Assembly: GCA_947448305.1 (NCBI GenBank)
Contig: CANFME010000004.1
Location: forward strand, 1 to 54,174
DNA: 54,174 nt
Direction of reading: 5' to 3'
Origin: Burkholderiaceae bacterium
Lineage (GTDB): Bacteria; Pseudomonadota; Gammaproteobacteria; Burkholderiales; Burkholderiaceae
A model generated the notes under the pieces. The model did no database searches. It was given only the letters and a program-made list of their open reading frames with translations, and was not told the origin of the DNA. The number at the start of each line of letters is the position of its first letter. Positions within the stretch are counted from its first letter, which is position 1. Shown here in pieces: positions 7,369-36,133 of the stretch. A program made the translations under genes and the position numbers.

Positions 7369-7407
7369 GGTAAATTAGATCTCTCAAACTTTTAGCGCAC
7401 AAACGCT

Positions 7408-7420
7408 AGTTATAATAACT
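7408..7420 (+). promoter_or_regulatory. candidate -10 element (TATAAT) inside a palindrome
   Basis: A perfect TATAAT at 7411-7416 lies inside the 13-base palindrome AGTTATAATAACT, 26 bases before the TTG start of the Mth938-like gene. A second small inverted repeat (TAGCG...CGCTA) sits just upstream at about 7393-7408. No good -35 hexamer is visible at 17 bases. It probably drives the plus-strand run, and the palindromes could bind a regulator. Confidence 0.4.
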
Positions 7421-7441
7421 ACATTATGACAGAGGTAAGCC

Positions 7442-7864
7442 TTGAAACTCCAACCTGATCCACACTCAGCACTGAATACCGTCACTAGATACGACGATTC
7501 TTATATCGAAATTAACGCAATTCGGTTCGAATCCTCGATTTTAGTCATGCCAGAAGGTCCAATCACGCCTTGGGAAATCTCTGACTTTACTCAGTTTGAG
7601 CGCACCCATTTTGAAATCATTGCTCAAATGCGACCCGAACTTGTTATTCTTGGCAGTGGCCTAAAACACCGCTTTGTATCACCAAGTCTCATTCAAGATT
7701 TATATAAAGCGAAAATTGGCTTTGAGATCATGACTACGCAGGCAGCGTGTAGAACCTATAATATTTTAATGGGTGAAGGCAGGCTAGTGCTCGGCGCCTT
7801 TTTAATCGAAAGTAACCCTGCAATATCACCTACGACAACATCTTCCACGACAAAGATCAATTGA
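7442..7864 (+). CDS. Mth938-like (DUF498/NDUFAF3 fold) protein
   Basis: This is a 140-residue protein of the Mth938/Xcc1710 fold related to the mitochondrial complex I assembly factor NDUFAF3. Visible features are IEINAIRFESSILVMP, PELVILGSGLKHRF and FEIMTTQAACRTYNILMGEGR, all typical of the family. The biochemical role in bacteria is not established. The start is a TTG preceded by a good GAGGTAAG ribosome-binding site. An upstream ATG at 7424 is in another frame and closes quickly. It is 10 bases from the ArnT-like gene, so it is the first gene of that operon by position. It has no known role in lipid A modification, so the link may be simple neighbourhood. Confidence 0.85.
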   Translation: MKLQPDPHSALNTVTRYDDSYIEINAIRFESSILVMPEGPITPWEISDFTQFERTHFEIIAQMRPELVILGSGLKHRFVSPSLIQDLYKAKIGFEIMTTQAACRTYNILMGEGRLVLGAFLIESNPAISPTTTSSTTKIN

Positions 7865-7874: not shown

Positions 7875-9587
7875 ATGTTGAATCGATTACAAACTCTGCG
7901 ACTGCAAGCTCTTTTAAACCCGAGTTGGTTGATCTACTTACTCCTTGCCATCGTTTGGTTGAGTACCCTAGGTTTTCGTCATTTACTACCCTCCGATGAA
8001 GGGCGTTATGCTGAAATTGCTCGGGAGATGTTAGTGAGTGGGAATTGGCTAGTCCCCAAATATAACGATTACCTGTATTTCGAAAAACCGCCTTTGCATA
8101 TGTGGATGACCACTCTCGCCTTTAAATTATTTGGCTTGGGTGAGTGGCAAGCAAGGCTTTGGAGTGGACTATCAAGCTTAGGGGGGATTTTCTTCTTCGC
8201 TTATACGGCGAATAAAGTTTGGGGTCCTCGGGTTGGCCATCTGACCGCCATGATTTTGGCGTCTAGTCCATTATGGATTTTAGGTGGTCACTTTAATTCA
8301 CTTGACATGGGTATGGCATTTTTTATGGGGGCCACCCTTTGTTGTTTAATCTTATCTTGGGGATCTACTCCAGGCTCCAAAACGCAACAAAATTGGATGT
8401 TATTGTGCTGGGCCTCCATGGCATTGGCAGTTCTAAGTAAAGGTTTAATCGGTGTCGTTTTACCGGGTTTGGTCATCGTGATCTATACCCTCACTAGCGG
8501 GGATTGGAAATGCTGGACTCAAATGCTATGGATAAAAGGCTTGGGCCTCTTCTTTCTGATTTGCGCTCCATGGTTTATTCTCATTTCGATTGAACACCCC
8601 TCTTTTTTACATTTCTTTTTTATTCGTGAACACTTTGAACGCTTCACTACCAATGAACATGCCCGCGTTGCACCTTGGCATTTTTTTCTCACGCTACTTT
8701 GCGTTGGACTACTTCCTTGGTTAGTGCAATTAGTCACGACTAATTTGCAAATTCTTAAACTACGACTGAAACTGCCACTCAATTCCCCAACATTTAAAGC
8801 GCTTTGGTTATCCTTTGTTTGGTTTGTAGTGATTCTGATTTTCTTTAGTTCATCGCACTCTAAGTTACCGGGGTATATCATCCCCGTTATTCCAGCGCTG
8901 GCCATCTTGATTGCGATTTCGATTGATCATGGCCTTAATTTATCTTTAACTAAAGCCAATTTCTTTCCCGCGCCTTGGTTATGGCAAGTTGGTTTTTTCC
9001 TAGTTCTTTTCATCGTTGGCTTGACAGAAATTTCACTCATCGAAAAAACAGGTGAAACGTATGAAGCGCAGAGTTATCTTGCTTATGCCAAAGATATTCG
9101 CATCGCTCTCCTTATTGGGATTGTTGGCTGTATTTTGTCCTTGTCGTATTACAAGCGAAAAATGCTTAGCCTCGGTCTTTACTCTGTGACTTTTTTAGCC
9201 GTCACATTAACTGCTGGCTTATCACATGAACACGTGGGACGTCTCTTGTCTGGTGTCGATCTAGCACAGCAAGTAAAACCCCTACTCAAACCTGACACGA
9301 AGTTGTATTCCGTGGAGTTGCTGGATCACACACTCCCCTTTTATTTAGAACACACCAGCATTATGGTCAATTTTGAAGATGAGTTAGCCTTTGGGATTGA
9401 ACAAGAACCTAACAAATGGATTAGTAAAACTGCTGATTGGATGCAGGTATGGCAATCCAATCCATCTGAAGATGCTTTTGCGATTTTAACGAACCATAAA
9501 TATGATGAACTTACAAAACTGAGTTTTCCAATGCAATTAGTAGCACGAGATGATTTAAGAGTAATTGTGCGTAAGCCATTGCCATGA
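7875..9587 (+). CDS. arnT: ArnT-like aminoarabinose transferase (GT83 / PMT family)
   Basis: This is an inner-membrane glycosyltransferase predicted to move 4-amino-4-deoxy-L-arabinose (L-Ara4N) from undecaprenyl phosphate to lipid A phosphates on the periplasmic face, which lowers polymyxin binding. The 570-residue protein begins with a membrane segment and the acidic loop LLPSDEGRYAEIAREML typical of PMT/ArnT enzymes, followed by YFEKPPLHMW and about a dozen hydrophobic segments, with a soluble C-terminal region. The role is supported by arnB, arnC, arnA-like and arnD genes directly downstream. Specificity for L-Ara4N comes from this context, since the family also transfers other sugars. 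Confidence 0.85.
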   Translation: MLNRLQTLRLQALLNPSWLIYLLLAIVWLSTLGFRHLLPSDEGRYAEIAREMLVSGNWLVPKYNDYLYFEKPPLHMWMTTLAFKLFGLGEWQARLWSGLSSLGGIFFFAYTANKVWGPRVGHLTAMILASSPLWILGGHFNSLDMGMAFFMGATLCCLILSWGSTPGSKTQQNWMLLCWASMALAVLSKGLIGVVLPGLVIVIYTLTSGDWKCWTQMLWIKGLGLFFLICAPWFILISIEHPSFLHFFFIREHFERFTTNEHARVAPWHFFLTLLCVGLLPWLVQLVTTNLQILKLRLKLPLNSPTFKALWLSFVWFVVILIFFSSSHSKLPGYIIPVIPALAILIAISIDHGLNLSLTKANFFPAPWLWQVGFFLVLFIVGLTEISLIEKTGETYEAQSYLAYAKDIRIALLIGIVGCILSLSYYKRKMLSLGLYSVTFLAVTLTAGLSHEHVGRLLSGVDLAQQVKPLLKPDTKLYSVELLDHTLPFYLEHTSIMVNFEDELAFGIEQEPNKWISKTADWMQVWQSNPSEDAFAILTNHKYDELTKLSFPMQLVARDDLRVIVRKPLP

Positions 9588-9629
9588 AGCATGGCAAAAA
9601 GTCTCAATAACCTATAGGTTTCAAAATCA

Positions 9630-10001
9630 ATGAATATATCTAGTTTCTCGTATTTATTCGCAGGCATCTTACTCAATGCCTGCGCGCAACTGTTGCTTAA
9701 AGCTGGGACAAATCGTCTTGGTGAAATAACCCTCGCCCCGTCAACACTACTACCTACCTTAATGCAATTAGGTACCAATTTACCCATCCTCGGTGGTCTA
9801 GCTTTATACGGCCTATCGGTCATTACTTGGATCGCAGGTTTGTCTAGGGTAGATGTCTCGATTGCTTACCCTCTCTTATCTTTAGGTTACGTGGTCAATG
9901 CTATTGCGGCATATTATTTATTTGGCGAGGTATTATCAACACAGCGCATGCTCGCTATTGGTATTATCTTGGTAGGCGTCTATATTTTGGCAAGATCTTA
10001 A
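9630..10001 (+). CDS. arnE: SMR/EamA-type flippase subunit, ArnE/ArnF-like
   Basis: This is a 123-residue, four-helix membrane protein of the small multidrug resistance type. Helices are visible at SSFSYLFAGILLNACAQLLL, LGGLALYGLSVITWIAGL, VSIAYPLLSLGYVVNAIAAY and MLAIGIILVGVYILA. In the arn system ArnE and ArnF form a heterodimer thought to flip undecaprenyl-phosphate-Ara4N across the inner membrane. Only one such gene is present here, between arnT and arnB, so it may act as a homodimer or pair with a protein encoded elsewhere. The ArnE versus ArnF assignment cannot be decided from the sequence. Confidence 0.75.
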   Translation: MNISSFSYLFAGILLNACAQLLLKAGTNRLGEITLAPSTLLPTLMQLGTNLPILGGLALYGLSVITWIAGLSRVDVSIAYPLLSLGYVVNAIAAYYLFGEVLSTQRMLAIGIILVGVYILARS

Positions 10002-10025
10002 TCCTTTCTTATTGGGCTAAAAGCT

Positions 10026-11198
10026 ATGAGCAACTCAGAAGTTTCCTTCCTGCCGTTCACAAAACCGACCATTGATGAAGAGACGATTGCGGCTGTCGGA
10101 GAAGTATTGCGCTCAGGATGGATCACGACGGGGCCCAAAAATGCGCAGTTAGAGAAAACCTTATCGGATTATTTTGGCGGCAGACCAGTACGTTGTTTTG
10201 CCAATGGCACAGCCACCATGGAAATCGCCTTAAGGATTGCTGGTATAGGCCCAAGTGATGAAGTCATTACTAGCCCTATTTCATGGGTTTCGACCTCTAA
10301 TGTGATTTTAACTGTTGGGGCGAAACCGGTCTTTGTGGATATTGATCCAATCACCCGTAATCTTGATCTCAATCTAATTGAAAAAGCCATCACACCAGCG
10401 ACCAAAGCGATCATGCCCGTCTACCTGGCTGGTTTACCGGTTGATATGGAGCACTTATACAGAATTGCTGATAAATATCACCTGCGGGTAATTGAAGACG
10501 CAGCACAAGCTTTAGGTAGTTCCTGGCAGGGGAGTCTGATTGGCGCTGCTAGTCCGCTGCGCTCTGATTTAGTCAGTTTTAGTTTTCAAGCTAATAAGAA
10601 CGTCACAAGTATTGAAGGTGGTTGCCTCGTCATGAATACGGAGGAAGAAGCCGTTCTTGCTAGTAAATATCGTTTGCAGGGCGTCACACGCACAGGTCTT
10701 GATGGCATGGAGGTTGATGTACTCGGTGGCAAGCATAACCTCACCGATGTCAATGCCGTGATTGGCTTACACCAATTTGCAAAAATTGCTCAAGTGACCG
10801 CTACTCGTCATGAATTGGCGAAACATTACTTTGCCAGTTTTGCAATGACCTCACTCGCAGCATTAGGACTCCAATTACCTGTGGCAGATTTCACTAATTC
10901 GAATTGGCATATGTTTCAGGTTGTGCTGCCCATTGAGGCCTTAGAAAATCGTCAGAGCAACCGTGCTGACATCATGCAAAAGATGAAAGATCAACAGATT
11001 GGTTGTGGCTTGCACTATCCCATCATTACGCAGTTTGCCCTTTACCAAGAGCTTGGTTATGACCCAGCAAATACTCCACACGCCATGCGAGTGGGTAAAT
11101 CCATTTTGACTCTGCCTTTATTTGCCCAAATGACGAATACTGATGTAGAGCGGGTGGTTACCAGTTTAGAAAATGCCCTTCTCTCCGTCTTAGGCTAA
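10026..11198 (+). CDS. arnB: UDP-4-keto-arabinose aminotransferase ArnB
   Basis: ArnB is a DegT/DnrJ/EryC1 PLP aminotransferase that converts UDP-4-keto-arabinose to UDP-L-Ara4N using glutamate. The 390-residue protein opens with FLPFTKPTIDEETIAAVGEVL and SGWITTGP, then CFANGTATMEIALRI, VIEDAAQALGSSW, and the PLP-lysine region SFQANKNVTSIEGG. The final third includes CGLHYP, also seen in this family. Spacing to the flippase gene is 24 bases. Function is well supported by family and operon. Confidence 0.92.
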   Translation: MSNSEVSFLPFTKPTIDEETIAAVGEVLRSGWITTGPKNAQLEKTLSDYFGGRPVRCFANGTATMEIALRIAGIGPSDEVITSPISWVSTSNVILTVGAKPVFVDIDPITRNLDLNLIEKAITPATKAIMPVYLAGLPVDMEHLYRIADKYHLRVIEDAAQALGSSWQGSLIGAASPLRSDLVSFSFQANKNVTSIEGGCLVMNTEEEAVLASKYRLQGVTRTGLDGMEVDVLGGKHNLTDVNAVIGLHQFAKIAQVTATRHELAKHYFASFAMTSLAALGLQLPVADFTNSNWHMFQVVLPIEALENRQSNRADIMQKMKDQQIGCGLHYPIITQFALYQELGYDPANTPHAMRVGKSILTLPLFAQMTNTDVERVVTSLENALLSVLG

Positions 11199-11236
11199 TA
11201 AGGGGCACCGCTAGCCGAATTTCTGTGCCGTAAAGC

Positions 11237-11252
11237 ATCAATTATTATTGAT
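11237..11252 (+). other. small hairpin in the arnB-arnC gap
   Basis: ATCAAT-TATT-ATTGAT forms a perfect six-pair stem in the 80-base gap between arnB and arnC. There is no T-run after it, so it is not a convincing terminator. It could affect mRNA processing or be chance in AT-rich DNA. Confidence 0.3.
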
Positions 11253-11278
11253 ACACAAAAAACCTTTAGAATTACTTC

Positions 11279-12316
11279 ATGTCAAAAAATATCATTCATA
11301 GCACATCAATGGAACGGTTTACTCCGGCAAAGCCAGAGTCTCCCCTGATTTCTATTGTGATTCCGGTGTACAACGAAGAGGAAGGTCTACAAGCATTATT
11401 TGATCGTCTTTATCCCGCTTTGGACACTATGGTCGATACTTTAAAAGTTCGCTATGAGGTGGTTTTTATTAATGATGGCAGTCGCGATCAATCTGCTCAA
11501 CTTTTAGCTAAGCAGTTTGACAAACGCCCCGACACCACCAGGGTAGTTTTATTTAACGGTAATTTTGGTCAACATATGGCCATCATGGCTGGATTTTCTT
11601 ATGCGAAGGGTGACTTTGTCGTCACTTTAGATGCGGACTTACAAAATCCTCCAGAGGAAATCCACCGCATCGCCCAGTGTCTCCTTGATGGATATGACTA
11701 TGTAGGCACGATTCGTATTGCTAGAAAAGATTCTTATTTCAGACGTTATGCCTCTAAGGCAATGAATCAACTAAGGGATCGCATCACCCGTATCACCATG
11801 ACTGACCAAGGTTGCATGATGCGTGGCTATGATCGGCGAGTGGTCAATTTGATGAGAAAAAGTAAAGAAATCAATACTTTTATTCCTGCATTAGGTTTCA
11901 CCTATGCAAGTAAAAAGATTGAAATTGAGATCAAACATGAGGAGCGCTTTGCAGGTGAGTCTAAGTATTCTCTCTATCAATTAATCAGGTTAAATTTTGA
12001 CTTAGTAACGGGCTTTTCCGTGATGCCACTGCAAGCTTTTTCTTTAATTGGCATCTTGTTGGCAATTGCCTCAGGCTTATTATTTATTCTGCTGTTAGTG
12101 CGTCGCTTTATTCTTGGTGCCGAAGTAGAAGGTGTGTTTACCTTATTTGCCCTGAACTTTTTCCTTATGGGTGTTTTACTCTTTGGAGTCGGCTTATTAG
12201 GTGAATACACCGGTCGGATCTATGAACAAGTTCGTAAGCGACCTAGGTATGTTGTGATGGGTGTTTTAGAGCAAGATGATGCAATTTCAGGTGAGACGAT
12301 TGACGCTTCGGAATAA
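11279..12316 (+). CDS. arnC: undecaprenyl-phosphate 4-deoxy-4-formamido-L-arabinose transferase ArnC
   Basis: ArnC is a GT2-family enzyme that transfers formylated L-Ara4N from UDP to undecaprenyl phosphate on the cytoplasmic face. The 345-residue protein has ISIVIPVYNEEEGL, VVFINDGSRDQS, VVTLDADLQNPPEE with the DAD metal site, and TDQGCMMRGY. Two C-terminal transmembrane segments follow (around residues 245-270 and 280-305). It overlaps the start of the next gene, so the two are translationally coupled. Specificity is assigned from the family and from the surrounding arn genes. Confidence 0.9.
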   Translation: MSKNIIHSTSMERFTPAKPESPLISIVIPVYNEEEGLQALFDRLYPALDTMVDTLKVRYEVVFINDGSRDQSAQLLAKQFDKRPDTTRVVLFNGNFGQHMAIMAGFSYAKGDFVVTLDADLQNPPEEIHRIAQCLLDGYDYVGTIRIARKDSYFRRYASKAMNQLRDRITRITMTDQGCMMRGYDRRVVNLMRKSKEINTFIPALGFTYASKKIEIEIKHEERFAGESKYSLYQLIRLNFDLVTGFSVMPLQAFSLIGILLAIASGLLFILLLVRRFILGAEVEGVFTLFALNFFLMGVLLFGVGLLGEYTGRIYEQVRKRPRYVVMGVLEQDDAISGETIDASE

Positions 12317-13232
12317 CACTGCAGTTGTATTTGCCTATCACACTGTAGGTGTTAAGTGTCTGCGGGCCTTAATTGAGGGTGGATTTGAGATTCCCCTCGT
12401 GATTTCTCATGCAGATAGTCCCAGTGAAAACATTTGGTTTGAGTCTGTCGCTAATTTGTGCCAGGCCCATCAAATTCCGGTTCTTTTAGACCCTGACCTA
12501 AGTGACCCTAAGTTGCAAGATCAGATCGCACAAATACAACCTGATTATTTGTTTTCTTTTTATTTTAGGCAAATGATTCCAACGACAATTTTGCAGCTCC
12601 CTAAGTTGGCAGCGCTCAATATGCACGGCTCTTTACTCCCCAAATATCGTGGTCGAGTACCAATCAACTGGGCAGTCCTGCACGGCGAGCATGAAACGGG
12701 TGCGACTTTACATGTGATGGAAGTTAAACCTGATGCGGGCGATATCGTCAGCCAAGAAGTGGTGCCAATTGGTCCTGACCAAACTGCTTACGAGGTTTTT
12801 AATGAAGTCAGCCAAGCGGCAGTGATTGCCTTAGAAAAAGTATTGCCGCAACTTCTTCAAGGCCAGATTCCTAGATCAAAAAATGATCTCTCACAGGGTA
12901 GTTACTTTGGCGGTCGCAAACCGCAAGATGGTTTGATAAACTGGCAAGCGAGTAGCAATGAAGTTTATAACCTTTACCGTGCGGTTGCCCCTCCTTATCC
13001 AGGAGCTTTTACGATGTTAGGCGAGCATCAACTGGTCGTTGCAAAAGCCCGTAAAATACTTCCGGATTCCCTACCAAGCACCCAAGCTCTGGGACTTGGT
13101 GTATTTGACGGTAAAATTGTAGGCTGTTGTTCAGATTGGGGCGGCCTATTGATCGACGAACTTCGGCAGAATGAATCCCTTGTCAGCCCACAGGACTTGC
13201 AAAAATTACTGAATACTTTCACAAACGCTTAG
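12300..13232 (+). CDS. arnA: UDP-L-Ara4N formyltransferase (N-terminal half of ArnA as a separate protein)
   Basis: This enzyme formylates UDP-L-Ara4N with N10-formyl-tetrahydrofolate. In E. coli it is the N-terminal domain of bifunctional ArnA. Here it is a free protein of about 310 residues. The Asn-His-Asp catalytic set is visible in LNMHGSLLPKYRGRVPINWA and KPDAGDIVSQE. ArnA-like sequence starts at AVVFAYHTVG. The track starts at ATG 12276, but an AGGTGAG ribosome-binding site lies six bases before a TTG at 12300, which leaves only 17 bases of overlap with arnC and fits the family N-terminus better. The start remains uncertain. The decarboxylase half is the next gene. Confidence 0.88.
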   Translation: MTLRNNTAVVFAYHTVGVKCLRALIEGGFEIPLVISHADSPSENIWFESVANLCQAHQIPVLLDPDLSDPKLQDQIAQIQPDYLFSFYFRQMIPTTILQLPKLAALNMHGSLLPKYRGRVPINWAVLHGEHETGATLHVMEVKPDAGDIVSQEVVPIGPDQTAYEVFNEVSQAAVIALEKVLPQLLQGQIPRSKNDLSQGSYFGGRKPQDGLINWQASSNEVYNLYRAVAPPYPGAFTMLGEHQLVVAKARKILPDSLPSTQALGLGVFDGKIVGCCSDWGGLLIDELRQNESLVSPQDLQKLLNTFTNA

Positions 13233-13291
13233 AATACTGTCTACAGCATGCAGTATTATCACTTTTCAATATCCGAGGCGAATGACCCAAT

Positions 13292-14338
13292 ATGGCTAAA
13301 AAAATCTTAATCCTAGGTGTAAACGGTTTTATCGGTCACCATCTTTCCAAGCGTATCTTAGAGACTACAGATTGGGAAGTCTACGGCATGGATATGCAAA
13401 ATGATCGACTCGGTGACATCATCAATCATCAAAGGATGCATTTTTTCGAGGGTGATATTACGATTAATAAAGAGTGGGTTGAGTATCACGTGCGTAAATG
13501 TGACGTGATTTTGCCCTTGGTGGCAATTGCGACGCCAGCCACTTATGTGCAACAACCACTCAAAGTATTTGAGCTCGATTTTGAAGCTAATTTACCGATT
13601 GTTCGCTCTGCCCATAAATACGGTAAACACCTCGTCTTCCCTTCAACATCTGAAGTTTACGGTATGAGCACGGACGCTGAATTTGACCCGGAGTCTTCAC
13701 CCCTGATTTATGGCCCAATTAATAAACCAAGATGGATTTATGCTTGCGCGAAACAGCTAATGGACCGCGTCATTTGGGGTTACGGGATGGAAGGCTTACG
13801 CTTTACGCTCTTTAGGCCTTTTAACTGGATTGGACCTGGTCTCGATAGTATATATACCGCCAAGGAAGGATCCTCACGCGTCGTCACCCAATTTTTAGGT
13901 CACATTGTGCGCGGTGAACCCATCAATTTAGTCGATGGTGGTATGCAAAAAAGAGCATTTACTTATATTGATGATGGTATCGATGCTTTGGCTTTGATTT
14001 TAGAAAACAAAAATGATATTGCCAATGGCAAGATTTATAACATTGGTAACCCAACTAACAACCATTCTGTCAAAGAATTAGCTAATATGATGTTAGCCAT
14101 TGCCAATCGGATTCCTGAGTATCAAGCAACTGCTAAATTGGTCAACGTGCAAGAAACGACGGCGAACGCTTACTATGGTACCGGTTACCAAGACGTACAA
14201 AACCGCGTGCCAAAAATTGAAAATACGATGACTGAATTAGGTTGGAAGCCCACCACAACAATGGAAGATGCCCTTGAGCATATTTTCGAAGCCTATCGTC
14301 TGGATGTGGCCCATGCGCGCAGTTTAGTGGATCATTAA
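13292..14338 (+). CDS. arnA: UDP-glucuronate oxidative decarboxylase (C-terminal half of ArnA as a separate protein)
   Basis: This NAD-dependent short-chain (extended SDR) enzyme converts UDP-glucuronate to UDP-4-keto-pentose, the first committed step of L-Ara4N synthesis. The 348-residue protein has the Rossmann motif ILGVNGFIGHHLSKRI, FPSTSEVYGM, the YxxxK catalytic pair in YACAKQLMDR, and the decarboxylase-specific-looking RPFNWIGPGLDS. It corresponds to residues from about 315 onward in fused ArnA. It follows the formyltransferase by 59 bases. No ugd gene to make UDP-glucuronate is in the window, so that enzyme must be elsewhere. Confidence 0.9.
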   Translation: MAKKILILGVNGFIGHHLSKRILETTDWEVYGMDMQNDRLGDIINHQRMHFFEGDITINKEWVEYHVRKCDVILPLVAIATPATYVQQPLKVFELDFEANLPIVRSAHKYGKHLVFPSTSEVYGMSTDAEFDPESSPLIYGPINKPRWIYACAKQLMDRVIWGYGMEGLRFTLFRPFNWIGPGLDSIYTAKEGSSRVVTQFLGHIVRGEPINLVDGGMQKRAFTYIDDGIDALALILENKNDIANGKIYNIGNPTNNHSVKELANMMLAIANRIPEYQATAKLVNVQETTANAYYGTGYQDVQNRVPKIENTMTELGWKPTTTMEDALEHIFEAYRLDVAHARSLVDH

Positions 14339-14385
14339 TTGACGCAAGTACGCTTTAATATGCTGAACTTTGGGAATACCTACTG

Positions 14386-15318
14386 ATGGGACGGATTGCG
14401 CTCAAAATCGACGTCGATACTTTGCGGGGAACGCAAGAAGGTGTACCTCGCTTACAAAAATTACTCGACATGAATCAGTTGCAGGCCACTTTTTTATTTA
14501 GCTTAGGTTTTGATCATACCGGTTGGGCTTTTAAAAATATTTTCAAACCCGGTTTTTTCCAAAAGGTTTCTCGTACTTCAGTGATTGAGCATTATGGCCT
14601 TAAAACCTTAAGTTACGGTATTCTCTTACCCGCCCCAGATATTGGTAAAAAAGCACGTGCAGAAATGCAATCCGTAGCAAAAAGTGGTCACGAAGTTGGG
14701 ATTCATACTTGGGATCACCGTGTGTGGCAGGACCATGTCCGAGATGCAACACCAGAGTGGACTTTACAACAGATGAATCTAGCTTGGGATCGCTTTACTG
14801 AAATTTTTAAAGAGGTACCAAAAACGCATGGTGCTGCGGGTTGGCAAATGAATCCAACGGCTATTGCGCATCTTGATACTTGGCAAATAAAGTATTCATC
14901 TGATGGTCGTGCACCGATCAACTTAGTTCCCTACAGGGTTAAGTTAGACGGCATGAAAACTTGTCAACATATTCAATACCCGACCACCTTGCCAACCCTA
15001 GATGAGTTAATTGGGGTCGATAATATGACAGGTGAAGATGTCATTAAACATCTATTAGCGCTGACTGCAAGTAACCCGAATGATCAAGTGTTTACTCTGC
15101 ATGCTGAGCTCGAAGGTCAAAAATTCTTACCCCTTTTCGAACAACTTTTAAAGGGTTGGATAAGTCAAGGCCATGAACTGGTCAGCATGCAAGCGTTACA
15201 TCTTTCTTGGCAAAAAACGGGACAATTACGGCATCTCATTGAATTACCATTTAAGTGGGGAGAAATCCCTAATCGAAGTGGGGAATTAATGCTAATGCCC
15301 AATGATTCATTTATTTAA
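14386..15318 (+). CDS. arnD: polysaccharide-deacetylase-family deformylase ArnD
   Basis: ArnD removes the formyl group from undecaprenyl-phosphate-L-Ara4FN before flipping and transfer. The 310-residue NodB-fold protein begins MGRIALKIDVDTLRGT, with the metal/catalytic Asp pair, and has the second motif SGHEVGIHTWDHRVWQDH. KTHGAAGWQMNPTA and HAELEG match the later conserved regions. It is the last arn gene in the run, and a weak AT-rich inverted repeat (TTTAACTT...AAGTTAAA) follows just after the stop. Confidence 0.92.
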   Translation: MGRIALKIDVDTLRGTQEGVPRLQKLLDMNQLQATFLFSLGFDHTGWAFKNIFKPGFFQKVSRTSVIEHYGLKTLSYGILLPAPDIGKKARAEMQSVAKSGHEVGIHTWDHRVWQDHVRDATPEWTLQQMNLAWDRFTEIFKEVPKTHGAAGWQMNPTAIAHLDTWQIKYSSDGRAPINLVPYRVKLDGMKTCQHIQYPTTLPTLDELIGVDNMTGEDVIKHLLALTASNPNDQVFTLHAELEGQKFLPLFEQLLKGWISQGHELVSMQALHLSWQKTGQLRHLIELPFKWGEIPNRSGELMLMPNDSFI

Positions 15319-25939: not shown

Positions 25940-26869
25940 TCAATCAAATAATAATTTTTCATTAAAGGGCAACACCGTCACGGCAACGGATAAACGATGG
26001 TTACCACCACCATGAATCACCCCTCGTATGGGTGAGACGTCTGCATAATCTCTACCTCGCGATAAGATAACATATTCCTCACCTGGTGCATGACGCCCCC
26101 AGCGGTTATTCGTTGGGTCAAAATGAAACCAACCTGCCTCAGTAAAACCGTTGACGGCAGGAACATAAGTTGCTACCCAAGCATGTGAGGCATCACTGCC
26201 AATCAGTCTAGGTTTACCAGGTGGTGGTTTGGTTAACATATAACCACTGACATACTGCGCAGGAAGGCCTAACATCCGTAAGCAAGAAATCATAATATGG
26301 GCAAAATCTTGGCAGACCCCTTTACGATTTTTTAGGGAATCAATAGCTAGCGTATTGACATCAGTCGAAGCTGTTTCATATTGCAATTCGTGATGAATCT
26401 TTTGCATCAGTGCCACTGCAGCCATCAAAATAGGTGTTTTTGCTAAAAAACATTCCTTCGCAAATTGAACAAAATCCTCATGAAACAAAATCATCGGTGA
26501 GGAAAAAATAAAGTCTGCTGCCGGGGCAATCGGTTGATTTGCTTGATAGCGATGAAAATTTCGAGTCTCTTCCCAAGATGGACTCATCAAGTCATTTTGC
26601 ACGAAAGCATTGTCGGAATCCGTTTCAATAACACTTTTTGCAACAGTCTTTAAACGAGTATGTCTAGATTCAATTGAAAAAAACGTACTAACATTACCAA
26701 AAATATCGGTTCGATCTTCAAAGTAGTCCGGCTCAGGACTTACCGTAAGACGTGCGGATAGAACTTGTTGCCCAAGACAATCATTGGGTTTTAAATGCGC
26801 TAAATGCTGCGTAATATCTACCGGAAAATCATAATCGTAAACCGTCTCATGCAGAATATCAAGTTTCAC
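25940..26869 (-). CDS. transglutaminase-like cysteine peptidase/ligase family protein
   Basis: The 309-residue protein has a bacterial transglutaminase N-terminal beta-sandwich (MKLDILHETVYDYDFPVDI) followed by a transglutaminase-fold catalytic domain. The triad is visible: Cys in KGVCQDFAHIMISCLR, His in ASHAWVATYVP, and Asp in WFHFDPTNNRWG. No signal peptide is seen, so it is probably cytoplasmic. The members of this family found beside ATP-grasp/alpha-E proteins are thought to act as peptidases or amide-bond-forming enzymes on peptide-like substrates. It starts two bases after the stop of the ATP-grasp gene, so the two are translationally coupled. Confidence 0.9.
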   Translation of the reverse strand: MKLDILHETVYDYDFPVDITQHLAHLKPNDCLGQQVLSARLTVSPEPDYFEDRTDIFGNVSTFFSIESRHTRLKTVAKSVIETDSDNAFVQNDLMSPSWEETRNFHRYQANQPIAPAADFIFSSPMILFHEDFVQFAKECFLAKTPILMAAVALMQKIHHELQYETASTDVNTLAIDSLKNRKGVCQDFAHIMISCLRMLGLPAQYVSGYMLTKPPPGKPRLIGSDASHAWVATYVPAVNGFTEAGWFHFDPTNNRWGRHAPGEEYVILSRGRDYADVSPIRGVIHGGGNHRLSVAVTVLPFNEKLLFD

Positions 26870-26871: not shown

Positions 26872-29478
26872 TTACCTCTGAATTTTGTAGGCGCTATTTT
26901 TGATATGCGTGAAATAGCGTCCCGTAATTTCATCAGAAATCGCCCATGCTTGACGAATACAATCTTTCACGCAATCCAGTAATTCCTCAAAAGCCACCTC
27001 TTTTACTTGTGGCACTAAATGCACTAAAACATCGACATGACTATGTTCAACCCGTGTTTCAGAGTTGGTTAATTTCGCTAATCGATTTCTTAATTTACGG
27101 GTAATCCAAGCGATTGAACGCGGATTTTCAGTATTAAAAACAAGTAATTCCAATAATTCGTTTAAATCTCTACTTTGCTGATGTTGAGCCTGAAAGGTAA
27201 TGGTGCTATCAAACAATCCTAAAAGAGTATTAAATCCAGAAGTATCATTGAATGGATTAGCCAAAACACCCTCTTCGATTGCACCTTCCAAAATACTAGA
27301 GAAAAACTGTAAACGCTCAATCAAACGTCCAATATTCATCAAAGTCCAACCTGCATCCCTAGTCATTCGATCGTTTTGCGCTCCGGTAATAGCGGATAAA
27401 AATTGATTAGTAGTTGATAAGCCTTGCAAGGCTAAGGTAATTGAATAATCATTACCTACCTTCATTAATTTATTGTCTTTTTCAAAGCGCTCGACACAAC
27501 GATTGATCATCGACCACAAGTCGGTCGAAAGTGATTCGCGAATTTTTGAGGCGGAGGCTTGTAAAGCCCTTAGGTTAGAGCCGACGCTCATTAAGGTCGT
27601 CGAGTTCAAATGCGACAACAGCATTCGTTCATCGCGCTGCTCCGTCTCGGCAGTAGCTGTTTGCCCACCGGCGAGGGGGAATGGCATCAGACCATTGATT
27701 TGACATAATTTATCTAACCAATTCCATAGCAAGTCAGATTGAGAGTTTTCACTATTTAAACTCTCTAGATACATGGTGGCTAAGACTGCGGTATTTTCAC
27801 TTCGTTCTGTGTATCTGCCAAACCAAAATAAATTTTCAGCAGATCGACTCGTAATCACCCTATCTCGATGGGCTTTACCTACCGAAGTCGCTTTGCTTGG
27901 AAATAAAATGGGCAGCTGTGTATAGCTCTGTCCTTGTACCCAAACATCGGTACTACTACCCCCTCTTTGCATCGAGGCAACGCCGTCTGGATTGGCAGCA
28001 ATCCTAGCTAAACCGCCAGGTAAAATCTGCCAAGAGTTACCAAGACCATCACTCATTGCAAAAACACGCAACATATAAGACCGCGGTTCAATACACTTTT
28101 CTAAATCAGGATTACTATCTGCTTGCCAAGTCGGTATTTGGGCTAGTGGCAAATAGGATTGAATCGTAAAATCATCAGGGGATTTTTTAATCTTCTCGAG
28201 AAGTTTAGAGACCTCTTTAGGGTTTAAGTTCTTGACTAAAAAGGAATCAAAATGTTGATGACCATCCAAAGAGGGATAAGTTGATTTGACAACACTATTA
28301 ACAAGGTTTTCTTGAGCAGCTTCAAAAGCAGCATCTTCGCCACACCACCAAGTATCCAGTGCCGGTAATAGCAATGGTTGGCCCAGTAACCGCTCACTAA
28401 TACTTGGCAAAAATGCCAGTAAGCCAGGTGACTCCAAAAATCCACTGCCTGGTGCATTAGCGATCACCACATTGCCAGCACGAATGACCTGCATCAGTCC
28501 TGGCACGCCTAAGGTCGAGTCTTCTTTTAACTCCAAGGGGTCTAAAAACGTATCATCCAGGCGTTTAATGATCACATGGACTGGTTCTAAACCATGAATG
28601 GTTCGCAGATAGGCACATTGATTGCGCACTGTCAGATCATTGCCTTCAACTAGGGTTAAACCTAAATACCTAGCAAGATAGGCATGTTCAAAATAGGTTT
28701 CGTTATAAGGTCCCGGTGTAAGTAAAACGATATGCGCATTTTGACCTGCCTTACTTTCCCTTTTTAATGACTGTACTAAACCACGGTAAACTCTCGTCAA
28801 GGACTCAATGCGCATTTGCTCATACGCTTTCGGAAACTGCTTGGAAACCAAGTTACGATTTTCCAACAAATAACCAAGGCCTGAAGGAGCTTGAGTACGT
28901 TGTGATAGAACGGACCAATTACCATTCGGACCACGGGCCAAGTCAAAGGCCATGATGTGTAAGTGTTTCTTATCTTTCGGAATCGCCTGATGCATGGATC
29001 GTAAATAACCGGGATGGCCATTCACCAAAGCTGGCGGAATTAAGCCTTCTTTAATTAAGGCACCCTCACCATAAACGTCTTGCATCATTGCTTCGAGCAA
29101 TTTTGCGCGTTGCAAAATCCCTGCTTGAATCACTAGCCATTCTTCATGAGGAATAATTAAGGGAAATAAATCAATGGTCCACGGTCTTGTGGGACCGTTT
29201 TCATCCACATAAATATTGTAGGTAATTCCATTATCTCGAACTTGTCGCTCGATTTCATTAGTACGAGCATTAAAGTCACTCAGTCCTTTGGGCTGTAAAT
29301 AGCTAAAGAAATCACGCCAATAGGGACGCATCGAGGACGCTCCAGACTGTTCGGAAGTGTACAACTCATCATAATGGGTTGTATCCGCTTTCGATACAGC
29401 TTCATACTGCTGGGTACTCGACTGCTGTTGAGTCGTTGGTTCTGTAAAGAAACTCGATTGGCTTTGAGATTGGGACAT
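26872..29478 (-). CDS. circularly permuted ATP-grasp / alpha-E domain fusion
   Basis: The 868-residue protein combines a circularly permuted ATP-grasp type 2 domain (roughly residues 50-530, with RPYWRDFFSYLQPKGLSDF, FDLARGPNGNWSVLSQRTQA and LTPGPYNETYFEHAYLARYLG) and an alpha-helical alpha-E domain (about 545-868, opening SRSAENLFWFGRYTERSENTA). In many bacteria these are separate neighbouring genes (DUF404/407 and DUF403). ATP-grasp enzymes ligate carboxylates to amines at the cost of ATP. Aravind and co-workers predicted that this set makes small peptides. The Gln/Ser-rich first 45 residues look disordered. It sits between the two transglutaminase genes. Confidence 0.9.
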   Translation of the reverse strand: MSQSQSQSSFFTEPTTQQQSSTQQYEAVSKADTTHYDELYTSEQSGASSMRPYWRDFFSYLQPKGLSDFNARTNEIERQVRDNGITYNIYVDENGPTRPWTIDLFPLIIPHEEWLVIQAGILQRAKLLEAMMQDVYGEGALIKEGLIPPALVNGHPGYLRSMHQAIPKDKKHLHIMAFDLARGPNGNWSVLSQRTQAPSGLGYLLENRNLVSKQFPKAYEQMRIESLTRVYRGLVQSLKRESKAGQNAHIVLLTPGPYNETYFEHAYLARYLGLTLVEGNDLTVRNQCAYLRTIHGLEPVHVIIKRLDDTFLDPLELKEDSTLGVPGLMQVIRAGNVVIANAPGSGFLESPGLLAFLPSISERLLGQPLLLPALDTWWCGEDAAFEAAQENLVNSVVKSTYPSLDGHQHFDSFLVKNLNPKEVSKLLEKIKKSPDDFTIQSYLPLAQIPTWQADSNPDLEKCIEPRSYMLRVFAMSDGLGNSWQILPGGLARIAANPDGVASMQRGGSSTDVWVQGQSYTQLPILFPSKATSVGKAHRDRVITSRSAENLFWFGRYTERSENTAVLATMYLESLNSENSQSDLLWNWLDKLCQINGLMPFPLAGGQTATAETEQRDERMLLSHLNSTTLMSVGSNLRALQASASKIRESLSTDLWSMINRCVERFEKDNKLMKVGNDYSITLALQGLSTTNQFLSAITGAQNDRMTRDAGWTLMNIGRLIERLQFFSSILEGAIEEGVLANPFNDTSGFNTLLGLFDSTITFQAQHQQSRDLNELLELLVFNTENPRSIAWITRKLRNRLAKLTNSETRVEHSHVDVLVHLVPQVKEVAFEELLDCVKDCIRQAWAISDEITGRYFTHIKNSAYKIQR

Positions 29479-29503: not shown

Positions 29504-32500
29504 CTAGCGACGCAAATCTAGCGTAAATGGAAACTCTTTACTACCTGCTAAGTCAATATTCGGCACAGTTTGTAATGAAACTCCAGGGGTATGCCCCATC
29601 ATAAAGAATCTAGACAAACGACGTGCCTCAGCTTCATAGGCATTGATTGGGAAGCCAGCATAATTCGTGCCACCCGGATGAATCACATGATACTGACAAC
29701 CCCCCACTGAACGTTTCGTCCATGTGTCAATTAAATCAAATGTTAAAGGTGACTGAATACCGATGCTAGGGTGCAAACTAGAAGGTGGATTCCACGCTTT
29801 GAAACGCACTCCGGCACTAAACTCACCAGCACGACCGGTTGACATGAGCGGTACAGCTTGACCATTACAAGTCACAACGTAGCGACTTTGATTCAAACCG
29901 CGCACTAAAATCTCAACACGCTCAAGAGATGAATCGACATAGCGTACGGTGCCACCATCTTCTTCACCCATCACATGCCATGGCTCGAGAGCGGTGCGTA
30001 GTTCCAACTCACAACCCATCGTACGAACTTGGCCAATTAATGGGAAGCGGAATTCAAAATGGGGTGCAAACCACTCTAAATCAAAATCAAAGCCAGCAGT
30101 TTTTAATTCTTGGATGACGTCGGCAAAATCTGCTTTTACAAATGACGATAACAAGCAACGATCATGTAACTCAGTTCCCCAACGGGTTGCTGGAGCAAGA
30201 TATGGCTCATCCCAGAAACGGGCGATTAAAGCTCTCAGTAATAGTTGTTGCACAATACTCATACGAGCATGGGGTGGCATTTCAAATGCACGAAGTTCTA
30301 ACAAACCTAAACGACCAGTAGAACTGTCTGGTGAGTAGAGTTTATCGATACAAAACTCACTACGGTGGGTATTGCCCGTGACATCAATCAAAATATTTCT
30401 CAGCGAGCGATCCACCAACCATGGTGGCATTTGTGTGCCATATTTTTTACGGTTAGCATAAATTTCTTTAATCGCGATTTCCAATTCGTAGAGTTGATCA
30501 TTTCTAGCTTCATCGACCCGTGGTGCTTGGCTCGTTGGGCCAATGAAAATGCCACTAAACAAATAAGAAAGACTTGGATGGTTGTGCCAAAATAAAATCA
30601 AGCTAGCTAAGAGTTCTGGCTTTCTCAAAAATGGACTGTCTGCTGGTGTTGCACCGCCCATCACAAAATGATTACCGCCACCAGTACCTGTGTGGCGTCC
30701 GTCCATCATGAATTTTTCAGCCGTCAAGCGTGATTCAAAAGCCGCTTGATATAAGAACTCGGTATTGTCTTTGAGTTCAGTCCAGTTATAAGCTGGGTGA
30801 ATATTCACCTCAATTACTCCTGGATCAGGCGTCACACTTAAGGTCTTGAGACGGAAGTCTTTCGGTGGTCCGTAGCCTTCGAGCACAATCTTATATTGCA
30901 GTTGATCTGCTGTTTTTTCTATCGCAACGAGTAATGTTAAATAATCCTCTAAGCGTGAAAGTGGTGGCATAAAGACATACATCACACCGTTCTTACCACC
31001 AAATTCAGCCACTGCATCCGGTCCATTAGCACGCATTGGGTCACGAACTTCTACACAGATGGCTGTGCGAGTTACCCAGTGCGCTGATTCTTGAAAGTCG
31101 GGTACCTTACGGATATCAGTCACCATCTTACTAGTCACTTTACCAACATTGCCGACTTTACCAGGACCTGTTTCGGCAGTCATATTAGACTGTTTGCCAC
31201 TGACCTCAAACTCTTTACGACGCGGATCCGTCTTGGTAGCACCAAATGTCACAGATTGCATACCTGATGGGAAATGTCCGTCATCTAACTGTTGTCGAAT
31301 TTGTGCATGCGAAGCAAGAGGAGCTTTAGGGGCAAAATGATCCTCTTCAATCAAATAAGGGTATTGCTCTTTAGAGACCCACGGCAAAGAATTTAACGGC
31401 AAGCGATAACCCATTGGCGAATCACCAGGTAACAAGTACATGCGATCATCTCTGATTAACCATGGGCCAGTTGACCAAGTCGTTTCAGAAAGAGTGTGAC
31501 TAGGCTTGGCACTAATCGGTAAAACATAACCAATTACTGCATCATTTTTTTGTTCAAAAACACGTTTTAAACGCTGACGCTCGAGCGGATCTTCTAAGTT
31601 TGACTCAAATGGATCGACATTTACAGGCAGCTTGGATTCACGCCACAAATAATAAAAGACATCCTCATAAGCCGGTCGAATGAACTCATCGGTAAGTCCA
31701 AGGTTCTTTGTCAGTGTATAAATAAATTTTTTAGAATCGGCGCTGGTGTAATGCAAGTCATCGCGTTCATCGGCAAACAGCTCAGGCTTACCCCAAACTT
31801 TTTCACCATCAGCGCGCCAATGAATTGACAAAGCCCAACGCGGTAACTGCTCACCGGGATACCACTTACCTTGACCAAAATGTAAGAAGCCACCTTTACC
31901 ATACTGCTCGTAAAGATGACCCACTAATTCGGTAGCAAAACCACGCTTAGTAGGTCCAAGTGCCTCGGTATTCCACTCTGGAGCATCTAGATTATCGATA
32001 CCCACATAGGTTGGCTCGCCGCCCATGGTTAAACGAACATCACCATCAACTAATTGTTGTTCGACATAATCGCCCAATTGATTAATTTTTTCCCACTGCT
32101 CTTCGGTATACGGTTTGGTAACGCGTGGAGATTCGTAAATACGCGTCACTTGCATGTGATGCGCGAACTCTACTTCAGATTTATCAACAGCACCCTCAAT
32201 CGGCGCCGCTCCACTTGGATCGGGCGTACAGGCCAGCGGCACGTGACCTTCACCAGCTAATAATCCTGAAGTTGGATCTAGACCAACCCAGCCAGCACCT
32301 GGTAAAAACACTTCACACCAAGCGTGTAAATCGGTAAAGTCTACATCGGTTCCGCTAGGACCATCGAGAGCCATTACGTCTGCTTTTAATTGGATTAAAT
32401 ACCCTGAAACAAAACGTGCAGCCAAGCCACAATGTCTTAATAGTTGCACCATTAACCAAGCAGAGTCACGGCAAGAACCACTGCAAAGTGTCAGCGTTTC

Positions 32501-33010
32501 TTCAGGTGTTTGAACTCCTGGCTCCATGCGGATGAGATACTTAATATCTTTTTGTAATTTCTGATTTAACTTCACCAAATAATCAATTGTCCTGACCTCA
32601 GTGCGGTCAACGCTAGCCAGATATTTCTTAAAATTTGGCGATAACTCGATGAGCTCTAAGTAAGGTAGTAGTTCTTTTTTTTCACTTGTTGTATAGGAAA
32701 AAGGATATTTCTCAGCATGCTTTTCTAAAAAGAAATCAAAAGGATTAAAAACAGCCATTTCAACCACGAGGTCTACCGTCACCTTAAAGATATTGGTTTT
32801 TTCGGGGAAGACCAGTCTTGCCTGATAGTTTGCAAAAGGATCTTGCTGCCAGTTGACGAAATGGGTTTTGGGTTCAATCTTGAGGGAGTAAGAAATAATC
32901 TTACTACGGGTATGGGGTGCAGGCCTTAAGCGAACAACTTGAGGTCCTAAGTTGATCATACGATCATATTTATATTCGGTAACGTGATTTAAAGCAATAT
33001 GGATTGACAT
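29504..33010 (-). CDS. transglutaminase - DUF2126 (amidoligase-like) fusion protein
   Basis: The 1168-residue protein has an N-terminal transglutaminase part (MSIHIALNHVTEYKYDRMI, Cys in CSGSCRDSAWLMVQLLRHCG, His in DLHAWCEVFLP, Asp in GLDPTSGLLAGEG) up to about residue 300. The remaining two thirds is DUF2126, starting near VRLTMGGEPTYVGIDNLD with FLHFGQGKWYPGEQLPRWAL. DUF2126 has been related to COOH-NH2 ligases of the glutamate-cysteine ligase class. It is the first gene of the minus-strand operon and is followed after 25 bases by the ATP-grasp/alpha-E gene. No Anbu proteasome-like gene, which often accompanies such sets, is in the window. Confidence 0.9.
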   Translation of the reverse strand: MSIHIALNHVTEYKYDRMINLGPQVVRLRPAPHTRSKIISYSLKIEPKTHFVNWQQDPFANYQARLVFPEKTNIFKVTVDLVVEMAVFNPFDFFLEKHAEKYPFSYTTSEKKELLPYLELIELSPNFKKYLASVDRTEVRTIDYLVKLNQKLQKDIKYLIRMEPGVQTPEETLTLCSGSCRDSAWLMVQLLRHCGLAARFVSGYLIQLKADVMALDGPSGTDVDFTDLHAWCEVFLPGAGWVGLDPTSGLLAGEGHVPLACTPDPSGAAPIEGAVDKSEVEFAHHMQVTRIYESPRVTKPYTEEQWEKINQLGDYVEQQLVDGDVRLTMGGEPTYVGIDNLDAPEWNTEALGPTKRGFATELVGHLYEQYGKGGFLHFGQGKWYPGEQLPRWALSIHWRADGEKVWGKPELFADERDDLHYTSADSKKFIYTLTKNLGLTDEFIRPAYEDVFYYLWRESKLPVNVDPFESNLEDPLERQRLKRVFEQKNDAVIGYVLPISAKPSHTLSETTWSTGPWLIRDDRMYLLPGDSPMGYRLPLNSLPWVSKEQYPYLIEEDHFAPKAPLASHAQIRQQLDDGHFPSGMQSVTFGATKTDPRRKEFEVSGKQSNMTAETGPGKVGNVGKVTSKMVTDIRKVPDFQESAHWVTRTAICVEVRDPMRANGPDAVAEFGGKNGVMYVFMPPLSRLEDYLTLLVAIEKTADQLQYKIVLEGYGPPKDFRLKTLSVTPDPGVIEVNIHPAYNWTELKDNTEFLYQAAFESRLTAEKFMMDGRHTGTGGGNHFVMGGATPADSPFLRKPELLASLILFWHNHPSLSYLFSGIFIGPTSQAPRVDEARNDQLYELEIAIKEIYANRKKYGTQMPPWLVDRSLRNILIDVTGNTHRSEFCIDKLYSPDSSTGRLGLLELRAFEMPPHARMSIVQQLLLRALIARFWDEPYLAPATRWGTELHDRCLLSSFVKADFADVIQELKTAGFDFDLEWFAPHFEFRFPLIGQVRTMGCELELRTALEPWHVMGEEDGGTVRYVDSSLERVEILVRGLNQSRYVVTCNGQAVPLMSTGRAGEFSAGVRFKAWNPPSSLHPSIGIQSPLTFDLIDTWTKRSVGGCQYHVIHPGGTNYAGFPINAYEAEARRLSRFFMMGHTPGVSLQTVPNIDLAGSKEFPFTLDLRR

Positions 33011-33232: not shown

Positions 33233-36133
33233 TTAGAAAGGAACATTATTGGAGCTAGAGCCACCAGAATTACCCGTAAAAGGATTTGATTGGTAACCAT
33301 GCGCTAAGTTATCGAATTTAGTAAACTCGCCCTGCCAAGACAGTTCAACGACACCAATCGGACCATTTCGTTGTTTACCAATGATGACCTCAGCAACACC
33401 AGGTCGATCCGTCTCTGGGTGATAAACGCTATCACGATAAATAAAAATAATGACGTCTGCATCCTGCTCAATCGCACCGGAATTATGGCAAACGATGCCA
33501 CCAGCCAACCAAGAGCCATGACTAGGTACAGTTAAATCAAAAACCTCTTCTTCACCAGCATCCTCAATAGTAAGAATTGGATCCCAGGATATGCCCAAAG
33601 AGATAGCCTGAGCTAGAGTTTGAACGGGTTGATTCGCAATTGCAACCTCGTCCCCGCTCGTTAAATCGGCAACAGTCTGCCAGCCTTTTTGGGTATAAAT
33701 ACGGTGATTTTTTGTTGCTGTAAGGGTCAAGCCACTTTGTGTCTGAATCCGTTGAACAGGCTTTACACCGACTGACCAAACACAATCACTCACTGCACTT
33801 TGCAATTGCTGTTGTTCATCCATCGCAATCACAGACGGGGTAGAGCCGACTAATTCTTTAATCGGTCTCAAAGTACCATCAGCAAGAACAACTTGGGTAT
33901 TGCCAGAGACGCACTCACGTAAATCGGACATGATTGGGCGCTTGTTTTCGCGGTTTTCTAAGCTACGATTTAACTGCGATAAGGCAATCACAGGACAGCC
34001 CATTTCTTTAGCAAGGGACTTTAAAGAGCGAGAGATTTCAGAGATTTCGGTTGTCCGGTTATCGCCTGAAGTACCACCTTTACCAGCCATCAATTGCAAA
34101 TAGTCAATCACAACTAAACCAACCTTACCGTACTTACGAGCCATCCTTCTAGCGCGAGCACGTAACTCAAGAGAACTCAAAGAACCCGTTTCATCGATGA
34201 GCATTGGCGCTTTATTAAGTAAGCCAATCGCATTAGTAAAACGGCTCCACTCTTCATCGTTTAAGTTACCGGTCTTTAATCGTCCTTGATTAACCCGACC
34301 GACTGAACCGAGCATTCTAGTCGCTAACTGAGAAGCGCCCATCTCCATCGAAAACACTAGAACTGGTAAGCCCTCTTTAATCGCCACATGCTCAGCGATA
34401 TTCATCGCAAACGACGTGTTATGGGTAACCACATAATCATCTGTGAGATAGGTTTTACTTGGATGACTAACCGAAATACATTGTGCCTGCGCTCTTCTTA
34501 CAGCTTGAATATTCGCAAAAGTAACAACCGGAGTATGGCCATCCACAGGTAAATCTATTTCTAAGCTATAGCCTAGGGATGAATTATCTTTAGCTTGATT
34601 TGTGAGCTCACAAGTACCGCCTAATGACCTCACTAGAGAAGTAATCTCTTTAGCAAATGACCCTGATAATACAGATAGTGATTGCTGTCTGGGCGAACCA
34701 GTTTGGTTACTTGCAAAGCCAGCTATGAGCCCCTGCAGGAGTGCCTGACGAACCGGCTTTTTCGCCAGTAAATAATTACTTGGAATACTAGGTATAAAAG
34801 AGTTCAGAGATAAACCAACTTGACTGAACGCTTCATTGATTGGACAAGGTGCAACGAACGATGCGCCATTGACGAGTAATTTACTTGGCAACACTCTGCG
34901 CCAGCGCAACTGACCTAAATTGGTTTTTACTATTGCGAAAGTAGTCGCGATTTCTTGGAATTCTTGGGCGAGCTCAGTTTGAAGTTTTTCTAAAAAGACC
35001 TCATTCAATTCTTTAAAAATAATTTCGCCCGCGTCCACTGTCTCGATACAACCCAGTAGTGCTCCTAGCAACCAAGGATCCATGGGTAAAGATTTCGTTG
35101 CTCCAAAATCACCCGTAATCGCATCAATTGATAACTGACTTGGCTGAATATCCTGCGCTAAAGAATTTGCAAGTTCAGCAGTAGACAAGACTTTTGCAGC
35201 AATCCAATCAGGATGAGAGACTCGCCACAAGTGCTCAGCGCAACATTGTGTAGCTCTACCATCTGAAAAAACCACTTCATAAATTTCTTTTAATCCTTGT
35301 GGAAAGATACCCGTCACAAAGGATGCTTGACCGTCGATAGAAGCCAGTGCATCACCGACCATCAAATCTTGCATTTGTTTCCAACCGCTCCATGTTTTAA
35401 TTTGAGCGTCCAGTGGTTGTGCTTTACCCATACTCGGACGACCCGCAACAATGATCAAATCGCCTTTTTGTAAACCACTGGTTTTTTTATCTAGATCAAT
35501 AAAGCCTGTCGCTACACCGGTAATTTCGTTCGAACCACCGCGCGCTTGGAGTTCTTGAATACGAACCACAGCTTCAGTCATTAACTCTTCCATCTCGAAG
35601 AATTCGCGGGTGCTACCACCGATTTCTCCAATGGCCAGGATTCTGGACTCTGCTTCATCGAGCAAGGTACGCACTGCTTTACCCTCAGGATCAAAGGCAG
35701 AGTTAGCAATACTATCCGCCGTCTGAATGAGCCGGCGCAAAATACTACGATCACGAATGATCTGGGCATAGCCTCGGACGTTCGCCGAGCTAGGCGTATT
35801 ACTACTGAGCTGATTTAAATAAGTGATCCCATAATTTTCGCCAAGACCTGTCGATTTAAGTTCTTCATGGACTGTCAGCACATCTGCTGGCTTGTTTTCA
35901 TTAACCAGTTTGCCAATTGAGCGAAAAATAACTGAGTGTTCAGTGCGATAAAAGTCGATTTCACCAAGAATTGGCGCGACCAAATCCCAACTGTTGTTAT
36001 CAAGTAACAAAGCACCGAGAACGGATTGCTCTGCTTCTACTGAATGAGGGGGGGTTTTTAGACCTTGTACAGCCCGATCCAACTCACCCGTGGGGGTTTG
36101 AGGTAGAAGGGGATCTGTACTTGGCATCTTCAA
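33233..36133 (-). CDS. dnaB: replicative DNA helicase DnaB with two inteins
   Basis: DnaB is the hexameric helicase that unwinds DNA at the replication fork. The 966-codon frame contains normal DnaB sequence in three parts: residues 1-237 (N-terminal domain and start of the RecA fold, to GRPSMGK), 573-740 (TSFAMNIAEH to MSDLRE) and 885-966 (SGAIEQDADVI to the C-terminus). Two inteins of 335 and 144 residues interrupt it. After splicing, the helicase would be 487 residues, close to usual DnaB length. The frame is open throughout and splice junction residues are intact. It is the last gene of the rpsF-priB-rpsR-rplI-dnaB operon. The first codon in the track is TTG. An ATG two codons later (36127) is an equally good start. 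Confidence 0.97.
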   Translation of the reverse strand: MKMPSTDPLLPQTPTGELDRAVQGLKTPPHSVEAEQSVLGALLLDNNSWDLVAPILGEIDFYRTEHSVIFRSIGKLVNENKPADVLTVHEELKSTGLGENYGITYLNQLSSNTPSSANVRGYAQIIRDRSILRRLIQTADSIANSAFDPEGKAVRTLLDEAESRILAIGEIGGSTREFFEMEELMTEAVVRIQELQARGGSNEITGVATGFIDLDKKTSGLQKGDLIIVAGRPSMGKAQPLDAQIKTWSGWKQMQDLMVGDALASIDGQASFVTGIFPQGLKEIYEVVFSDGRATQCCAEHLWRVSHPDWIAAKVLSTAELANSLAQDIQPSQLSIDAITGDFGATKSLPMDPWLLGALLGCIETVDAGEIIFKELNEVFLEKLQTELAQEFQEIATTFAIVKTNLGQLRWRRVLPSKLLVNGASFVAPCPINEAFSQVGLSLNSFIPSIPSNYLLAKKPVRQALLQGLIAGFASNQTGSPRQQSLSVLSGSFAKEITSLVRSLGGTCELTNQAKDNSSLGYSLEIDLPVDGHTPVVTFANIQAVRRAQAQCISVSHPSKTYLTDDYVVTHNTSFAMNIAEHVAIKEGLPVLVFSMEMGASQLATRMLGSVGRVNQGRLKTGNLNDEEWSRFTNAIGLLNKAPMLIDETGSLSSLELRARARRMARKYGKVGLVVIDYLQLMAGKGGTSGDNRTTEISEISRSLKSLAKEMGCPVIALSQLNRSLENRENKRPIMSDLRECVSGNTQVVLADGTLRPIKELVGSTPSVIAMDEQQQLQSAVSDCVWSVGVKPVQRIQTQSGLTLTATKNHRIYTQKGWQTVADLTSGDEVAIANQPVQTLAQAISLGISWDPILTIEDAGEEEVFDLTVPSHGSWLAGGIVCHNSGAIEQDADVIIFIYRDSVYHPETDRPGVAEVIIGKQRNGPIGVVELSWQGEFTKFDNLAHGYQSNPFTGNSGGSSSNNVPF
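33482..33913 (-). other. DnaB mini-intein 2 (Cys-1, class 1, no endonuclease)
   Basis: Residues 741-884 of the dnaB frame form a 144-residue mini-intein. Block A is CVSGNTQVVLADGTLRPIKEL with Cys-1. Block B is LTLTATKNHRIYTQKGW with the TxxH-type element. Blocks F and G are EVFDLTVPSHGSW and GGIVCHN, and the +1 residue is Ser. Residues 1-144 leave no room for a homing endonuclease. The exteins rejoin as DLRE/SGAIEQDAD, the conserved DnaB motif H4. All classical splicing residues are present, so splicing is expected. Confidence 0.95.
34418..35422 (-). other. DnaB intein 1 (Ala-1, class 3-like, with decayed LAGLIDADG region)
   Basis: Residues 238-572 of the dnaB frame form a 335-residue intein inside the Walker A motif: GRPSMGK/T. 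It begins with Ala (AQPLDAQIKTW), not Cys or Ser. It has Trp after the block-B His (CAEHLWRVSH), Cys in block F (AQCISVSHPSKTYLTDDYVV) and Thr before the final His-Asn (VTHN), followed by Thr+1. This Trp-Cys-Thr set is the class 3 signature described for inteins that start splicing from the block-F Cys. Between the splicing blocks lie two LAGLIDADG-like stretches (PWLLGALLGCIETV and ALLQGLIAGFASNQ) that lack the expected acidic residues, so endonuclease activity has probably been lost. Confidence 0.93.

Follow-up and report, generated by a model that had tools for sequence, protein, structure and literature searches.

Introduction

Iyer et al. reportedly predicted, in 2009, a parent peptide-ligase system, proposed as a widely distributed potential peptide-tagging system. 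Its components are said to be a circularly permuted ATP-grasp enzyme, a circularly permuted glutamine synthetase (GS)-like ligase, an NTN-hydrolase and an alpha-helical domain. Anbu, a gene product recurring below, is a proteasome-like hydrolase. Several papers credit Iyer et al. 2009 (doi 10.1039/b917682a) for the ATP-grasp/Alpha-E/transglutaminase system. Experimentally, a related ATP-grasp protein from the Anbu operon of Y. bercovieri releases phosphate from ATP, and for Anbu neither peptidase activity nor stable association with the other operon proteins was seen (PMC6376114). In M. leprae, ML2678 combines a transglutaminase-like domain with a putative amidoligase domain and was listed in 2024 as having no experimental study (PMC11597610).

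Here, we describe an operon in a 54,174-nucleotide stretch (the window, i.e., contig CANFME010000004.1, positions 1 to 54,174, assembly GCA_947448305.1) from a Burkholderiaceae bacterium. The closest relatives point to a bacterium resembling Polynucleobacter within this family. The amidoligase/ATP-grasp/Alpha-E/transglutaminase components attributed to Iyer et al. 2009 are all present in it; it differs from that system in that Anbu is missing from the cluster and the ATP-grasp and Alpha-E domains are fused in one protein. Compared with the Anbu operon, the ATP-grasp, Alpha-E and transglutaminase parts are homologous, whereas the window's operon contains, instead of Anbu, DUF2126 and an additional transglutaminase. 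Its largest gene, a transglutaminase–DUF2126 fusion, has the same two domains as M. leprae ML2678 and the RefSeq "transglutaminase family protein" entries, from which it differs by sequence divergence only. This gene is a typical representative of an already known bacterial enzyme family with a wide distribution.

Results

The fusion gene and its domains

The fusion gene occupies positions 29504-33010 on the minus strand, the strand being a detail that the initial annotation had left out, and starts with ATG. It encodes 1168 residues, as indicated by the list of open reading frames, Pfam and full-length relatives. Since identity over the full length reaches 72–75% with several named relatives and 98% with one metagenome-assembled genome (MAG), the frame is not a chance one. 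Two Pfam domains above cut-off make up the transglutaminase half, namely Bact_transglu_N (PF08379, residues 6-84, positions 32759-32995, 2e-23, 83 bits) and Transglut_core (PF01841, residues 135-246, positions 32273-32608, 6.8e-17, 62 bits). They are followed by DUF2126 (PF09899, putative amidoligase, residues 276-1167, positions 29510-32185), which is matched over profile positions 1-826 of 826 with E = 0 and 1277 bits, against a curated threshold of 27 bits; all three lie on the minus strand.

The catalytic triad can be read directly from the minus strand: C180 (32471-32473) within SGSCRD, H229 (32324-32326) within DLHAW and D245 (32276-32278) within LDPTS. None of the three residues varies among 100 aligned sequences, a set that includes the query and also distant sequences. 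The core resembles PDB 3isr when its predicted structure is searched with Foldseek (E = 1.7e-7). The initial annotation had described a 1168-residue protein in which a transglutaminase with an intact Cys-His-Asp triad, placed within the first 300 residues, precedes a full DUF2126 region, and these data bear out each part of that description.

Operon partners

Twenty-five bases past the fusion stop, on the same strand, starts a gene for an 868-residue protein (26872-29478, minus strand) that joins a circularly permuted type 2 ATP-grasp domain (PF14403, 9e-136) to an Alpha-E domain (PF04168, 8e-55) and matches PDB 3n6x (2.6e-72). The initial annotation did not mention this gene, which sits between the two transglutaminases and raises the number of predicted ligases in the operon to two. 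Two bases beyond it begins the gene for a free-standing transglutaminase of 309 residues with a GTG start (25940-26869, minus strand; PF08379, PF01841; PDB 3isr, 5e-11). Its triad C186/H229/D251 is identical in 77 of 77 aligned sequences, so the second transglutaminase with its own triad, noted in the initial annotation, is indeed there.

No NCBIfam family was matched by any of the three operon proteins, a PHROGs search returned no match, and the defence-system library gave nothing convincing. A Cas12a entry in that library matched the small transglutaminase (0.006), which we judged to be chance. Scans of the sequence found only short two-copy repeats, promoter-like sites at chance level and terminator-like sites slightly above it, none of which affects the reading of the fusion gene.

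Distribution and architecture in relatives

Of 150 Burkholderiaceae genomes sampled, 67 contain DUF2126, as do 121 of 399 sampled from the phylum; the frames that carry it nearly always run to about 1100 residues or more. Transglutaminase and DUF2126 share one frame, with an ATP-grasp gene adjoining, at all 30 family-level loci examined; fused frames are also seen in 77 relatives aligned over the full length and at 19 of 20 distant loci. Fusion is therefore the usual architecture of the DUF2126 family, and the special status that the initial annotation had implied for it does not hold. The neighbourhood of DUF2126, CP_ATPgrasp_2, Alpha-E and transglutaminase genes is conserved as well: among 80 relatives in named genomes, 70 had enough downstream sequence for the gene order to be judged, and the order fusion, ATP-grasp/Alpha-E, transglutaminase was present in 58. 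Caballeronia has these three genes too, their RefSeq names being transglutaminase family protein (twice) and circularly permuted type 2 ATP-grasp protein. Synechococcus elongatus possesses PF09899, PF14403, PF04168 and PF08379, according to profile searches.

Some loci depart from this layout. L033 and L059 have the DUF2126 fusion, and no ATP-grasp/Alpha-E protein was detected downstream of it within the fetched sequence. On a Caballeronia plasmid (L201), the cluster encloses an oppositely oriented gene (4814-5875) for a putative zinc-binding metallopeptidase. A distant relative with 34–36% identity (L120) encodes transglutaminase (4709-5611) and DUF2126 (5595-7736) as separate, overlapping genes; since this locus splits the two domains, the fusion and the separate genes can replace each other in evolution. 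No relative was found in viral contigs, and phage records yielded one match of 26.7%, limited to the transglutaminase part.

Links to Anbu

Among the listed open reading frames of at least 150 residues, none near the window's operon encodes Anbu. In four relatives (L127, L128, L131 and L132), the DUF2126 gene directly adjoins or overlaps an Anbu gene, an arrangement that points to translational coupling. The Anbu proteins of these loci are 38–41% identical to the one in the studied genome, which belongs to a classical cluster elsewhere (L119, 3087-7156) with ATP-grasp, Alpha-E, transglutaminase and Anbu. Its identity is confirmed by solved Anbu structures, with E values down to 5.6e-82; the Pfam Proteasome profile (PF00227) misses it, and the same search found no HslV. 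The adjoining Anbu genes of the four relatives, together with the L119 cluster in the genome, link the DUF2126 enzyme with the Anbu system.

Fold of the DUF2126 part

Pfam describes DUF2126 as "Putative amidoligase enzyme", so its assignment to the COOH-NH2 ligases is a prediction already in print; the papers searched contained no biochemical work on a DUF2126 protein. When solved structures were searched by sequence, the transglutaminase half alone was matched. The same half gave the only meaningful fold matches of a full-length AlphaFold2 (AF2) model (mean pLDDT 66.6, pTM 0.57); matches of this model to diphtheria toxin had probabilities below 0.1 and were set aside as noise. Residues 296-1012 were then taken separately, with 78 sequences of limited diversity in the alignment, and gave an AF2 model of moderate confidence (pTM 0.78, mean pLDDT 73.9). 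The ten best PDB matches of this model are all ligases of the GS superfamily, none of them individually significant (best E = 0.42). The YbdK-type structure 1tt4 ranks first and glutamine synthetases are among the top ten, with Dop and GmaS lower, likewise at non-significant E values. Against a viral library, the best named matches were "COOH.NH2 ligase-type 2" and "Amidoligase enzyme".

The GS/YbdK (GCS2)/Dop superfamily thus provides the top, non-significant fold matches of a region with no detectable sequence similarity to it. When the DUF2126 profile was compared with those of GCS2, Amidoligase_2 and glutamine synthetase, no match emerged, and the known relatives missed each other too; because these positive controls also failed, the comparison had no power. 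Pfam COOH-NH2_lig, as a comparison set, was absent from 143 genomes and from the controls. A circular permutation of DUF2126, if real, would be expected to depress the fold scores.

Across 130 DUF2126 sequences, dozens of Glu, His, Arg and Asn residues are invariant, among them E332, E387, E734, N736, H781, H882, E885, E905, R907 and E910, and most are kept in the divergent, split L120. An active site would be expected to show such invariance. The modelled fold weakly but consistently supports the assignment of the DUF2126 part as an ATP- and metal-dependent amidoligase.

Other features of the window

The replicative helicase DnaB (33233-36133, minus strand, 966 residues) carries two inserts. 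The first, at about residues 239-571, interrupts the P-loop site (GRPSMGK/AQPL...VVTHN/TSF) and has intein-like ends with no intein match; the second, at about residues 741-886 (LREC/VSGN...VCHN/SGAIEQ), matches Pfam Intein_splicing. Judging by the translations, positions 7875-15318 (plus strand) resemble an operon for the modification of lipid A with aminoarabinose (arn); here, ArnA's two activities would be divided between two reading frames, one formyltransferase-like (12276-13232) and one dehydratase/decarboxylase-like (13292-14338). At 608-1081 (plus strand), a frame of 157 residues contains the Fic-like motif HPFLDGNGR and is possibly the end of a gene for a Fic protein.

Discussion

We favour, with a probability of roughly 70%, the reading that this operon is a standard bacterial amidoligase/Alpha-E/transglutaminase system, in which DUF2126 is a GS-like ligase, the transglutaminases cleave or transfer, and the set builds and edits a peptide or amide. 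The N-terminal transglutaminase-like domain would act as a papain-like Cys-His-Asp enzyme that cleaves or transfers amide bonds via a thioester. DUF2126 is most likely a divergent GS-like ligase that would couple a carboxylate, activated with ATP and metal, to an amine. Judged from the domains that share the chain, it is plausible that one forms an amide and the other trims or transfers it. At the level of the operon, DUF2126 and the ATP-grasp protein most likely form the amide bonds that the transglutaminase domains would cleave or transfer, and the fusion, the ATP-grasp ligase and the free-standing transglutaminase probably build and edit a small peptide or amide modification on a target.

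The product of such a system might be a tag. It is possible, if tentative, that the two ligases assemble a non-ribosomal peptide tag and attach it to proteins, and that the transglutaminases, along with Anbu where it occurs, take the tag off or process it. This hypothesis is already in print, and it agrees with the pairing of two predicted ligases with two hydrolases/transferases, with the overlap between the fusion gene and Anbu in some relatives and with the separate Anbu operon of the studied genome. Against it, no tag or tagged protein is known, Anbu lies outside the neighbourhood of the fusion gene in the window, and Anbu itself was found to lack peptidase activity and stable complexes with its operon partners (PMC6376114). 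More specific, and more doubtful, is the notion of a non-ribosomal, ubiquitin-like tagging in which the fused enzyme both attaches the tag and removes or transfers it, with Anbu acting in some bacteria.

Other explanations concern the DUF2126 part itself. Dop has the GS fold and acts as an amide hydrolase, and the presence of Dop structures among the weak fold matches would suit a DUF2126 that works as a reverse amidase or deamidase, leaving both halves of the fusion hydrolytic and the ATP-grasp protein as the sole ligase. We consider this unlikely: Dop ranked below glutamine synthetases and YbdK in the fold search, although our data fit either direction of reaction. Very improbable, in our judgement, is a DUF2126 that is a structural or binding region serving the transglutaminase rather than an ATP-dependent enzyme. 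The individually non-significant fold matches would allow for it, but a region with that role has to be reconciled with dozens of Glu, His, Arg and Asn residues held invariant over 130 sequences and largely retained in L120. The GS-like ligase thus remains our preferred reading of DUF2126.

The copy in the window adds nothing beyond other copies of the family. Useful by-products of the comparison are the relative with split domains, the relatives in which Anbu overlaps the DUF2126 gene, and the laboratory cyanobacterium Synechococcus elongatus, where all the families occur. As the DUF2126 family is very common and appears to be without a demonstrated reaction, solving it would matter.
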